64,000 nt of DNA, from assembly GCF_003667275.1 (NCBI RefSeq), contig NZ_RCNV01000010.1, forward strand, positions 1-64,000, in the 5' to 3' direction. How positions within the stretch are numbered: position 1 is the first letter of the stretch; each line of letters begins with the position of its first letter. Under the pieces are notes generated by a model. The model saw nothing but the letters and a program-made list of their open reading frames with translations, had not been told where the DNA came from and made no database searches. Positions 19,693-30,809 of the stretch are shown one piece after another. The translations under genes and the position numbers were made by a program. This DNA comes from Mesonia aquimarina. Lineage in GTDB: Bacteria > Bacteroidota > Bacteroidia > Flavobacteriales > Flavobacteriaceae.

Positions 19693-19855
19693 GCTGAAAA
19701 CTTAACACCTCTAGGGTTTTAAAATTAGCTTTAACAATTAATCAACTAATCTGTAATGTAAAGGTAAAACGATATCTAGATTGAAAACATCCCCTTTAAC
19801 GAGTATTTTTTAAAAATACCTCAATATCAAGTTTATTTTATTACATTTGGTGTAT

Positions 19856-19974
19856 CATTACGAACCTCTTGAATGGGGTAGCAACCTGCCAGAACAGGCG
19901 AAGGTGCTAAGACAATGAGCCTTTCTAAAGGAAAAGTATGTCAACTCCCTTTAATTCGCTTTGTTTTCGTAATG
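19856..19974 (+). ncRNA. Candidate SAM-clan (S-box-like) riboswitch
   Basis: A four-way junction can be drawn. P1 is CATTACGAA (19856-19864) with TTCGTAATG (19966-19974). P2 is ACCTC (19864-19868) with GGGGT (19875-19879), where A19864 must belong to P1 or P2. P3 is TAGCAACC..GCC with GGC..GGTGCTA (19879-19909). P4 is GACA (19911-19914) with TGTC (19939-19942) around CCTTT/AAAGG. The GCAACC...AAGGTGCTAA core is the hallmark of P3 in SAM-I and SAM-IV riboswitches. The canonical long P2 with kink-turn is absent. An ORF of unknown function follows 24 bases later. Confidence 0.5.
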
Positions 19975-26071: not shown

Positions 26072-27007
26072 ATGCCAAAAAAAATTGTAATTATAAGTCC
26101 GGGGCGCGATTGTACGCCATGGATTAGAGCTTTAAAAAAAGAAGAACCTAATTTAATCGTAGAAGTTTATCCTGATGATACCAATCGGGAGGATACCGAC
26201 TTTATTCTCACTTGGAATCCACCGAAGAATGTTTTTGAAAACTACCCCAATCTAAAAGTAATTGCATCGATGGGCGCGGGAATTCGGCATATTTTAAAGG
26301 AAAATAAGATCCCCAAACAAGCTGAAATTACCAAAATGGACGACCCGTTACTGAAAGAAGATATGAGCTATTTTGTATTGACAACGGCTTTAAATTTTCT
26401 TCGGAATATTCCGCTTTATTTTCAGCAACAAAATGATAAAATTTGGGAAAGACTAGCTTACCAACGACCCGAAGAAATTAACATCGGAATTATGGGGTTT
26501 GGTAATATTGGCGTAAAAGTAGGCGAATTATTGGTGAAAAATAAGTTTAATGTTCGCGGCTGGTCAAAATCAAAAAAATCACATCAGCATATTGAAACAT
26601 TTGCAGGCGATAAAGAATTAACTAATTTCCTTGAAGGAAGTAATATTCTGGTTTGCTTACTCCCGCTAACCGATGAAACAGAAGGAATTCTTTCAAAAGA
26701 AATATTTCAGCAATTACCGAAAGGAGCTTATTTAATAAACGTAGGTCGCGGACCGCATTTAATTGAGGAAGATTTAAAAAACGCGTTGAAAAACGAGCGA
26801 CTTTCCGGTGCGGCGCTCGATGTTTTTCAAGAAGAACCTTTACCAAAAGATCATTGGTTTTGGAATCATAAAAAAATTCAACTTACGCCACATACGGCAA
26901 GTGTAACCGATCCTGAATCGATTAGCAGCCAAGTGATTGAAAACTTAAATCGATTAAAAAAAGGAGAAGAATTATTACATGTTGTTTCTTTAAAGAAAGG
27001 GTATTGA
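26072..27007 (+). CDS. D-2-hydroxyacid dehydrogenase, GhrA-like
   Basis: 311 residues. It resembles glyoxylate/hydroxypyruvate reductase A, which reduces 2-oxoacids such as glyoxylate with NAD(P)H. The nucleotide-binding motif IGIMGFGNIGVKVGELL is at about 135. Catalytic residues of the family can be placed: Arg in INVGRGPHLIEEDL, Glu in LDVFQEEPLPKDH and His in IQLTPHTASVTDP. Length is normal. It lies 40 bases after the acyl-CoA dehydrogenase gene. The true substrate is not decided by sequence. Confidence 0.88.
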   Translation: MPKKIVIISPGRDCTPWIRALKKEEPNLIVEVYPDDTNREDTDFILTWNPPKNVFENYPNLKVIASMGAGIRHILKENKIPKQAEITKMDDPLLKEDMSYFVLTTALNFLRNIPLYFQQQNDKIWERLAYQRPEEINIGIMGFGNIGVKVGELLVKNKFNVRGWSKSKKSHQHIETFAGDKELTNFLEGSNILVCLLPLTDETEGILSKEIFQQLPKGAYLINVGRGPHLIEEDLKNALKNERLSGAALDVFQEEPLPKDHWFWNHKKIQLTPHTASVTDPESISSQVIENLNRLKKGEELLHVVSLKKGY

Positions 27008-27137: not shown

Positions 27138-28154
27138 TTATTTCGTAAAAATATGATGCTGGGTGGCTGTAAAATAATCACAAAATATTTGGTGGATTTC
27201 TTGATCGGTGCGGCTGGCTTTAACCCCCAAATGCGGGTACACCGAAATAAGGGAATGCGTTAATTCCTTTACAGAATGAGAGGCTTGGTGATGAATGGTA
27301 TTCATCATTTCACCGGAGATGTCTTGCTCTTTTGTGATGTATTCTTCCACTTGGTCGGCATACATCTTAACTTGTTGATTCACTTGATGTAGCTGTGGTT
27401 CTAAATCACCCCATAAATTTCCTGTTTTAAGCCCTTTTCCGGCTTCCATGAAATGGGTCGCCATCCCGATATAATTTACCCAAAGCGTTAAATCAGCAAA
27501 GACGGCAAATGGGATTTTAAAGATCGGGTGCGGTTGGTAAAATTGATCGTAAACAAAACTAGCCTCTTGATGCACTAAAACCTTTTCTACTTGAAAGGAA
27601 TGCGTAGCGGATGCTTTTAAGCCCATACTCTGCCAGTCTTCTATAATACTCACCGCAGATTTGGGCAACACAAACGATAAGACCTTCGGACTGCCATCGG
27701 AATGATGTATCGGTTTTCCGTTCTCGTAAATCTCCGCATTTAAGGTAAAATGACTCAAATAAGGAGCTCCGGTAGCATAAGACCACGTCCCGGAAATTTC
27801 ATAGGCATCTCCTCGTTTTTCTGCAATTCCCGAAACCGCTCCACTTCCACCAAAACATACGTTGTTCGGCTTTTCGCTGAAAATTGACGCTGCCCTGGCC
27901 GGCGATAAGTTCCCCACAAAATAATTGGCGCCACTGCACAAGGTTACACACCAACCCAAGCTTCCGTCTATTTGTGCTAATCCTTGCAACTTGGCGAGCC
28001 CTTCTGTCAATGAAGATTCCAATCCACCGTATTTTTTAGGCACCCAAATATTCCATAAATTTTCTCGAGCAATCCAATCGAGGACAGATGACGGAAAAGT
28101 ATCCTGTCCCGCTTTTAGGTCCCTAAGCGTTTGCCGGTTGTTGATCTTGTTCAT
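27138..28154 (-). CDS. Acyl-CoA-dehydrogenase-like flavoprotein in the TPP operon
   Basis: 338 residues with the acyl-CoA dehydrogenase superfamily fold. The N-terminal helical part (NIWVPKKYGGLESSLTEGLAKL, IDGSLGWCVTLCSGANYF) and the beta domain (GGSGAVSGIAEKRGDAYEISGTWSYATGA) are most like group D flavin monooxygenases (HsaA/DszC kind) rather than true dehydrogenases. The catalytic glutamate region is not seen, and the protein is about 40-60 residues shorter than typical members. Its first 32 bases overlap the end of pnuT, so it is translated from the TPP-riboswitch transcript. An oxidative step in thiamine or precursor salvage is inference only. Confidence 0.75.
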   Translation of the reverse strand: MNKINNRQTLRDLKAGQDTFPSSVLDWIARENLWNIWVPKKYGGLESSLTEGLAKLQGLAQIDGSLGWCVTLCSGANYFVGNLSPARAASIFSEKPNNVCFGGSGAVSGIAEKRGDAYEISGTWSYATGAPYLSHFTLNAEIYENGKPIHHSDGSPKVLSFVLPKSAVSIIEDWQSMGLKASATHSFQVEKVLVHQEASFVYDQFYQPHPIFKIPFAVFADLTLWVNYIGMATHFMEAGKGLKTGNLWGDLEPQLHQVNQQVKMYADQVEEYITKEQDISGEMMNTIHHQASHSVKELTHSLISVYPHLGVKASRTDQEIHQIFCDYFTATQHHIFTK

Positions 28155-28728
28155 TTTTTATAATTTTTCTCCATGTAAAGTACCCGGAAGTTCCTACAAT
28201 AAATAAGAATACCGTTAATCCGGCATACACGTATAAGTCTTTATAGATTAACAACGGAATCGAGATCACATTACTGATATTTAAAAACACCCAATTTTGC
28301 AATTTGCGTTTTGCCATCAACCACATGCCTGCCCAGGCAAAAGCACTTGTGGTGGCATCCCAAAAAGGAACATCAGAATCGGTAAAGCCCACCAACCAAG
28401 TACTCATCAGAATAAAACACCCCACTACAATGCCAATGGCTTTTATGTACTCGTTTGGACTTGCGCTAGAAATCGGAGCCTCTTCGTGCTGTTTTCCATA
28501 TTTCCAATAGACCCAACCATAGATACTCATACCCAAATAATATAGGTGTAAAACAAGGTCGGCGTAAAGCTTAGACTCATAATGAACCCATAAACCAATA
28601 AGAATCGAAGCGATCCCGAAAAGGTAATTATGAATATTATTTTTTCGAGCTAACAAGACTTGCATCACTCCTAATGCGGTGCCTATGCTTTGTAATCCGA
28701 TAAGGTTCGTTAGAAATTCCTCTGTCAT
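28123..28728 (-). CDS. pnuT: PnuC-family transporter, probably thiamine-type PnuT
   Basis: 201 residues from the ATG at 28728; a longer frame to 28884 would only translate the riboswitch. Six to seven membrane helices are visible (IGTALGVMQVLLA, YLFGIASILIGLWVHY, LVLHLYYLGMSIYGWVYWKYG, IGIVVGCFILMSTWLVGF). The PnuC WxxW signature appears as GWVYWKYG. PnuC proteins facilitate uptake of nicotinamide riboside; members under TPP riboswitches are inferred to move thiamine and are called PnuT. The TPP element upstream supports that. The ACAD-like gene overlaps its 3' end. Confidence 0.9.
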   Translation of the reverse strand: MTEEFLTNLIGLQSIGTALGVMQVLLARKNNIHNYLFGIASILIGLWVHYESKLYADLVLHLYYLGMSIYGWVYWKYGKQHEEAPISSASPNEYIKAIGIVVGCFILMSTWLVGFTDSDVPFWDATTSAFAWAGMWLMAKRKLQNWVFLNISNVISIPLLIYKDLYVYAGLTVFLFIVGTSGYFTWRKIIKNEQDQQPANA

Positions 28729-28799
28729 TGCGATCGTAAAATTCAATGAAATGAGGAGACAAGCTAGAAATCGGCCATAAACAATATTGTTTAGCCTCA

Positions 28800-28886
28800 A
28801 ATTTCCTACGCCGGCATTATCCGGATCAGGTCTTGAGCATCTTGCTCGCGGGTATGATCTCAGCCTGTTTGACAAGCACCCCATTT
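28800..28886 (-). ncRNA. TPP riboswitch (THI element)
   Basis: On the minus strand all conserved blocks appear in order: GGGGTGC, GGCTGAGA, ATACCC, ACCTGATC, GGATAATGCC and GCGTAGGAA. It lies about 70 bases before the pnuT ATG. By family knowledge it lowers expression when thiamine pyrophosphate is abundant. The pnuT start and the overlapping flavoprotein gene are its targets. Confidence 0.96.
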
Positions 28887-28946
28887 CAAATTCCGTAGCA
28901 AAGCTACTATTTTTCTTGGGAAGAATTGTGTTGTGAGGAGGGAAAA

Positions 28947-29015
28947 TTAGTGCTTAGTGCTTAGTGCTTAGTGCTTAGTGCTTAGTGCTTAGTGCTTAGT
29001 GCTTAGTGCTTAGTG
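28947..29015 (+). repeat. 7-bp tandem repeat (GTGCTTA), nearly 10 copies
   Basis: The unit TTAGTGC is repeated without visible error for 69 bases (9.9 copies). It is intergenic, between the TPP riboswitch and a dispersed repeat. Such arrays change copy number readily. Confidence 0.9.
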
Positions 29016-30212: not shown

Positions 30213-30809
30213 TTAACTTAATTTCGCTGCTAAGCTTAAGGTGCGGTTAACTTGAACTTCAATAGCTTTCTTTTGTTTATCGTTTAGCGCTTCCCCGCCG
30301 ACCATACTAAAACCGTACGGATTTCCTCCGGTTTCAAAGAGTACTGGATCGCAATAACCGGGTGCTGCAATTATTGCTCCCCAATGCATCATCGTTTTGT
30401 ATAAGGACAACAACGTGGTCTCTTGCCCTCCATGGGGGTTCCCGGCACTTGTCATACCGCTAACAACTTTATTGACCAGTTTGCCTTTTTGCCACAGGCC
30501 TCCGGTAGCATCGAGCAAGCTTTTAAATTGTGAAGGTAAATTTCCATAACGCGTAGGCGCACTAAAAACAATAGCATCTGCCCAGTCTAAATCGTCAACA
30601 CTTGCGGTTGCAATCGATTTGGTTTGTTGATAATGATTGTACCAACCCTCATTTTCTTTCATCACTTCCTCCGGAACAGTTTCTTCTATTCTTCTTAACC
30701 GTATCTCTTTAACCCCTAACTTTTGAGCTGCAGACTCAGCTTCTTTAGCTAATTGGTGATTTGTTCCGGTCGCACTGTAATAAATAATCGCTAGTTTTAG
30801 ATTTTCCAT
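30213..30809 (-). CDS. wrbA: WrbA-type NAD(P)H:quinone oxidoreductase
   Basis: 198 residues, flavodoxin fold. The FMN phosphate loop is YYSATGTNHQLAKEA (9-24). The WrbA signature SAPTRYGNLPSQFKSLLDATGGLW is at about 105, with FATGGNPYGFSMVGG-like FMN contacts (FETGGNPYGFS) later. WrbA proteins reduce quinones by two electrons with NAD(P)H and are thought to limit oxidative stress. It is monocistronic, with the start at an ATG directly before the phosphate loop. Two near-identical 293-bp repeats lie on either side. Confidence 0.93.
   Translation of the reverse strand: MENLKLAIIYYSATGTNHQLAKEAESAAQKLGVKEIRLRRIEETVPEEVMKENEGWYNHYQQTKSIATASVDDLDWADAIVFSAPTRYGNLPSQFKSLLDATGGLWQKGKLVNKVVSGMTSAGNPHGGQETTLLSLYKTMMHWGAIIAAPGYCDPVLFETGGNPYGFSMVGGEALNDKQKKAIEVQVNRTLSLAAKLS

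Follow-up and report, generated by a model that had tools for sequence, protein, structure and literature searches.

A TPP riboswitch, a pnuT-like transporter gene and an overlapping flavoprotein gene stand together in a stretch of Mesonia aquimarina DNA of 64,000 nucleotides (contig NZ_RCNV01000010.1), hereafter the window. The reading we favour, with a probability of roughly 0.6, is that they form a vitamin B1 acquisition operon in which a TPP-controlled pnuT is joined to a class D monooxygenase that oxygenates a molecule of that route. The parts of the locus are ordinary, their combination is new and conserved, and the finding in flavobacteria and some of their relatives of a conserved oxygenase gene beside a likely B1 importer points to an undescribed step in obtaining vitamin B1. 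To our knowledge, an oxygenase step on a thiamine vitamer is absent from the known B1 pathways, and if the reading is true, this conserved, TPP-headed and importer-coupled oxygenase would add a reaction to those by which B1 is used. External vitamin B1 is a requirement of many aquatic Bacteroidota. A field survey reports several Bacteroidota clusters in which the B1 synthesis and transport systems described so far are lacking (PMC10881298). Our literature search, which ran over titles and the starts of abstracts and took in few subscription papers, returned no description of a TPP-controlled flavoprotein beside PnuT.

The gene pair in the window and across Bacteroidota

The locus consists of the following features, read from the minus strand:

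28785-28893, minus strand: TPP riboswitch aptamer upstream of pnuT (Rfam RF00059, 59.2 bits, full length)
28123-28731, minus strand: pnuT-like gene for a PnuC family transporter of 202 aa (ATG at 28731; PF04973, 163.6 bits)
27138-28154, minus strand: class D flavin monooxygenase-like gene, 338 aa, with its start within the pnuT 3' end
28123-28154, minus strand: overlap of pnuT and the flavoprotein gene, 32 bases by the gene coordinates

A first-pass annotation, made from the letters of this DNA, had proposed a TPP riboswitch upstream of pnuT and a flavoprotein gene starting 32 bases inside the pnuT coding end, on the same TPP-controlled transcript. Both features were borne out, the aptamer covering positions 1-105 of the Rfam model above its gathering score of 54.3, and a single TPP-headed run is supported by the aptamer, the overlap and the recurrence of the pair described below. 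The operon appears to hold two genes, since the next long ORF downstream (26072-27007) lies on the opposite strand. A longer ORF form of the transporter (253 aa, start 28884) begins within the aptamer; alignments with orthologues start no earlier than residue 2 of the 202-aa form. Translational control of pnuT is the simpler reading, because no terminator-like site was found between the aptamer and pnuT; of 200 shuffled versions of this region, 196 fold less well. At 34 other loci, with gene starts called mechanically and locus L145 left out for its over-long flavoprotein ORF, PnuT and flavoprotein genes overlap by 4 to 41 bases in 28 (by exactly 32 bases in 10 of these) and by 1 base in one, and lie 1 to 66 bases apart in the remaining five.

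The genome search returned three TPP elements in the window genome, including the one at pnuT: the second stands before thiM-thiE-thiD-tenA and the third, at 43.4 bits and thus under the Rfam cut-off, before a TonB receptor. Elsewhere in the window lie a WrbA-type gene (30213-30809), a SAM-I/IV riboswitch (19850-19947, 54.6 bits) and, just upstream of the TPP riboswitch, about 10 head-to-tail copies of the heptamer TTAGTGC (28947-29015).

In a set of 60 genomes (the window genome and 59 relatives), some PnuC occurs in 55, and one with at least 65% identity to the window PnuT in only nine (next best 38%). A flavoprotein homologue at E 0.001 occurs in 15 of the 60 and a close one (at least 49% identity) in nine, which are the same nine genomes; in all nine the two genes are adjacent and preceded by a TPP element, two of these elements falling under the Rfam cut-off at 49.6 and 48.7 bits. 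A family search of 397 genomes found the flavoprotein at 1e-20 in 25, among them 21 close orthologues (E 1e-100 or lower). Intact PnuT lies directly upstream in 19 of the 21, is broken in G226 and is lacking in G166, and a TPP element is present in 20; of these elements, eight exceed the Rfam cut-off, 11 fall short of it with E values of 1.3e-5 or better, and the one in G226 is weak at 28.5 bits. The other four of the 25 comprise a remnant with stop codons (G069), a match at a contig edge (G126) and two divergent homologues (G211, G385).

Across the phylum (395 genomes), 30 flavoprotein homologues were found at 1e-20. PnuT lies directly upstream in 14, the window genome included, and 13 of these loci have a TPP element, placed before the pair or before a TonB-sized gene in front of it; two of the 13 elements exceed the Rfam cut-off, and none was found at the remaining PnuT-linked locus, G803. 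The other 16 homologues have no adjoining PnuT, which argues that the wider flavoprotein family is not a thiamine family; one of them, in G582, closely precedes a TPP element and a TonB receptor. Neighbours of unlinked distant relatives include a porin-like gene (L136), a GMC oxidoreductase (L137) and an esterase-like gene (L140), among others.

A pattern scan of named genomes gave at least 559 confirmed relatives among the 599 stretches listed. In the best 80 of these at least 559 loci, PnuT forms one long match directly upstream in 75, is broken in L240 and is lacking in four, and a TPP element stands upstream in 76, as judged with a model (R1) derived from 18 TPP elements of the cassette and one of thiM. 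The 80 loci overlap other counted genomes and are not independent samples (L240 is the same DNA as G226, and L200 the same as G166). They include Salegentibacter, Arenibacter, Maribacter, Leeuwenhoekiella, Allomuricauda, Roseivirga and Empedobacter. The flavoprotein gene stands by itself, with PnuT and TPP absent nearby, in four: L200 (Kriegella), L229 (Neptunicella marina) and the metagenome-assembled L242 and L246. In the genome of the Kriegella case, G166, a TPP element also stands ahead of a TonB receptor and another PnuC-family transporter, which shares 30% identity with that of the window (L250:3759-6828).

Two candidates from these loci were rejected. A 585-aa ORF in L145 resembled a PnuT-flavoprotein fusion, but pnuT there is read in a separate frame, and the upstream portion of the ORF runs open across it by chance. 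The TPP aptamers upstream of pnuT in Salegentibacter (L170, L171, L174, L175, L193) contain a long insert, measure 161 to 204 nt overall and fall below the Rfam cut-off; two model R1 matches each in L170, L174, L175 and L193 suggested tandem aptamers, and Rfam aligns each pair as a single aptamer with a long insert.

The pair with its TPP element therefore recurs across Bacteroidota in the 60-, 397- and 395-genome sets and in the named-genome scan. The first-pass annotation had named two observations that would speak against it, a flavoprotein unlinked to TPP riboswitches or thiamine genes elsewhere and an operon unique to this strain; we checked for both, and for close orthologues neither spoke against it. 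Linkage of the flavoprotein to PnuT and TPP is strong in close orthologues, and more distant homologues are often without a thiamine link.

The flavoprotein and the transporter

No Pfam family matches the 338-aa flavoprotein, and its best NCBIfam match, the HsaA-type model, is weak at 59.1 bits, far under the cut-off of 450. Overall, the HsaA, HPAH and SfnB equivalogs score 45-59 bits against cut-offs of 430-650, so the protein falls outside these equivalogs; each of the 26 homologues aligned is recognised by the HsaA and HPAH models at E 0.001, and 14 of them by PF08028. Profile matches of the window protein are XiaF, Rv3094c and HsaA. The AlphaFold2 model (pLDDT 90.0, pTM 0.89) has an acyl-CoA dehydrogenase-type fold whose nearest neighbours by Foldseek are XiaF, HsaA, 3-HSA hydroxylase, Rv3094c and p-hydroxyphenylacetate hydroxylase C2, with acyl-CoA dehydrogenases ranking behind. 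Rv3094c, HsaA, XiaF and the C2-type p-hydroxyphenylacetate hydroxylase, which we take to be class D two-component flavin monooxygenases, have the same fold (E 5e-20 to 2e-16) and are longer, at 376-422 aa; the window protein lacks residues in the C-terminal helical part. With L146, a longer relative, the match to Rv3094c extends over residues 45-358, almost full length (E 3.7e-24).

The flavin-ring residues and ethionamide contacts of Rv3094c have been described, as has the role of its His351 as proton donor to the hydroperoxyflavin (PMC9904262). These pocket residues map to W68, G103, S104, G105, Y126, T128, W174, L179, T184, T329, H333 and H334 of the window protein. Six of the 12 positions are identical, including the proton-donor histidine, three are similar and three changed. 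His351 corresponds to His333, which is invariant in 31 of 31 homologues in one alignment (A3) and 26 of 26 in another (A1). Among the differences, W115 of Rv3094c is replaced by Gly105, F352 by His334 and the gate residue F221 by Ala220, and the ethionamide contacts that map are all changed save V202 (V201 here, variable among homologues). Oxygen chemistry is probably kept, because His333 and most flavin-pocket residues are retained, and the substrate probably differs from that of Rv3094c, because the mapped ethionamide contacts are changed with that one exception.

The protein does not qualify as an acyl-CoA dehydrogenase: although some relatives match its Pfam families in part, the window protein has neither the Pfam domains nor a conserved catalytic glutamate. 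No position is conserved as Glu in the 26 (A1) or 31 (A3) aligned homologues, so that the usual dehydrogenase reaction is unlikely. Acidic positions kept in at least 85% are 63, 221 and 237 in A1 and 63, 221 and 326 in A3; the window protein has Asp at each of these except 237, a Glu (E237) that alternates with Asp and other residues among homologues. We dropped an early candidate reading, loss of flavin binding for want of an invariant Arg or Lys, as the flavin contacts given for Rv3094c name no Arg or Lys (PMC9904262). Predicted structure and alignment thus give good support to the protein being a class D (two-component) flavin monooxygenase that is shortened and altered on its substrate side. 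This agrees with the first-pass annotation, which had seen a group D monooxygenase type without the catalytic glutamate and had suggested a predicted structure as a check on the active site; fold neighbours and a flavin pocket with 9 of 12 positions the same or similar are of the monooxygenase type.

The transporter belongs to the PnuC/PnuT family by PF04973 (NMN_transporter), scoring far above the cut-off of 27.3, and is a putative thiamine PnuT, to judge from its TPP control and the TonB and ThiE linkage of its relatives. Nicotinamide riboside transport by PnuC with NadR involves the same transporter family, and for this the window genome appears to keep a separate protein: a second PnuC, 34% identical to the window PnuT, lies beside an AAA_28 (PF13521) gene that we take to be NadR and is therefore presumably the nicotinamide riboside importer.

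A probable role in vitamin B1 acquisition and its rivals

Four genomes of one genus from another family (L146, L147, L148, L151) have a TPP element followed by a TonB-sized gene (800 aa, in L146 a TonB receptor by Pfam), PnuT and the flavoprotein. In L146, L147 and L151, ThiE stands one gene beyond the flavoprotein; the gene between them, in L146 a type I phosphodiesterase by Pfam, has a similar size and start in the other two. These runs put the flavoprotein inside a full vitamin B1 uptake-and-use run.

Thiamine genes were compared by profile search in 78 genomes of our choosing, 39 carriers (including G166, G226 and G582, which lack an intact adjacent PnuT) and 39 non-carriers; the genomes are related and the counts are not independent events. 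ThiC was found in 6 carriers against 16 non-carriers, ThiE over cut-off in 23 against 21, strong ThiM in 9 of each, TPK (PF04263) in 3 against 12, and ThiL in all 78. TPK was not found in 63 of the 78 genomes and 36 of the 39 carriers; within the window's genus it occurs in none of 7 carriers against 7 of 9 non-carriers. The cassette as a rule replacing TPK is a reading we do not rely on, given that TPK is rare overall (15/78) and 18 non-carriers also lack ThiE and TPK. Neither ThiE over cut-off nor TPK was found in 15 carriers (G226 and G582 among them) and 18 non-carriers, jointly 33 of 78. In these 15 carriers no recognised source of TMP was found, though ThiL is present, a gap that the 18 non-carriers share; the PnuT cargo is therefore uncertain, and in such genomes it may be TMP, or the cells may have a kinase not yet recognised.

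These 15 carriers could not use HMP or thiazole by known enzymes, which argues against the making of either as the general role and for a general substrate that is an intact thiamine vitamer or something not meant for re-assembly. When TPP is scarce, TPP riboswitches permit expression, and by this knowledge the riboswitch here would allow joint expression of pnuT and the flavoprotein gene that overlaps it. A TPP-controlled TonB receptor would carry thiamine or a vitamer across the outer membrane and PnuT across the inner one, going by their families. For its reduced FMN or FAD the flavoprotein would depend on a separate reductase, none being encoded in the two-gene operon, and a hydroperoxyflavin stabilised by His333 would then oxygenate a small molecule arriving by the PnuT route, as predicted fold and aligned pocket suggest. 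Carriers without ThiE make an intact thiamine-skeleton vitamer the likelier substrate over free HMP or thiazole. Our best guess at the reaction, a tentative one, is S- or C2-oxygenation of the thiazole part.

In favour of the B1 operon are the pair and its TPP element in the surveys, the L146-type runs, the context in G582, the window genome's other TPP sites and the pocket match. Against it are the 4 of 80 loci without PnuT or TPP, the 16 of 30 phylum homologues without PnuT, the mere 2 of 13 TPP elements over cut-off, the lack of a reductase in the operon, the three of 12 pocket positions that differ from Rv3094c and the unsure cargo. A more specific form of this reading falls somewhat short of even odds: a TPP-repressed oxygenase dedicated to B1 acquisition, acting on an intact vitamer imported by PnuT, may in many Bacteroidota hold the place beside PnuT that tnr3, a thiamine pyrophosphokinase gene, has in Bacteroides. 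The TPP-controlled OMthi and pnuT-tnr3 thiamine uptake operons described for Bacteroides combine a TPP element, a TonB receptor and a PnuC-family thiamine transporter (PMC5613172), as here, where the transporter function is putative. They differ in that pnuT is followed there by tnr3 and here by a flavin monooxygenase-like gene, in carriers of which 36 of 39 have no PF04263 match.

The first-pass annotation had imagined an undescribed salvage step on thiamine or a precursor. A step on thiamine itself accords with our reading; the making of HMP or thiazole does not stand as a general role. Oxidative precursor salvage, in which the enzyme produces or trims HMP or thiazole and ThiD, ThiM and ThiE put the parts together again, would suit the window genome, where ThiC and TPK were not found by profile search and a TPP-headed thiM-thiE-thiD-tenA run is present, and also the three genomes with ThiE after the cassette. 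Yet ThiE over cut-off is missing from 16 of 39 carriers and strong ThiM is no commoner in carriers than in non-carriers (9/39 each), and we consider this explanation unlikely. The enzyme might otherwise oxidise toxic thiamine analogues (e.g., of the bacimethrin type) that enter via PnuT when uptake is induced; co-expression with the importer, persistence of the gene without PnuT and a substrate side unlike Rv3094c would fit, but such a role does not need tight coupling to pnuT, making detoxification quite improbable.

A thiamine-degrading oxygenase, turning thiamine into pyrimidine products such as FAMP, is very unlikely, as a TPP-repressed thiamine destroyer makes little sense in cells unable to rebuild thiamine. 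A marine flavobacterium, Pibocella sp., grown in the dark, is described as having FAMP and AmMP in its cells and a gain of FAMP in its medium, but the fresh medium already contained FAMP (PMC10470507); a link of our flavoprotein to dark FAMP production is a lead only. There is scarcely any likelihood that a general flavin monooxygenase came to be coupled to pnuT by chance as an unrelated passenger: distant homologues do occur in other contexts, but PnuT linkage holds in 75 of the best 80 of at least 559 named loci, Roseivirga and Empedobacter among them, and in 13 other phylum-search genomes at 29-54% identity.

Descent of the pair and further TPP-headed runs

In a quick tree of 67 homologues (no bootstrap, midpoint root, L145 cut by hand), 40 PnuT-linked and 10 unlinked rows fall on one branch with 95% SH-aLRT, and the PnuT-linkage label changes 7 times, against 21.5 in shuffles. 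The Roseivirga rows L133 and L197 form a group (98%) with the gammaproteobacterial records L229 and L246 inside the Flavobacteriaceae branch (80-87%). The PnuT rows of L133 and L197 likewise lie among Flavobacteriaceae in a PnuT tree with five chosen PnuC proteins as outgroup. This shared nesting of both proteins suggests that the pair was transferred as one unit.

Among the carriers, G734 and G249 have another TPP-headed run (L252:3008-5734 and L253:3033-5730, respectively) of a SAM methyltransferase, a ThiL-like AIRS protein, a ThiE-like protein and a 94-aa protein, the last being Trm112-like in L252. Neighbouring TPP, ThiL-like and ThiE matches also occur in G409, G288 and G060.
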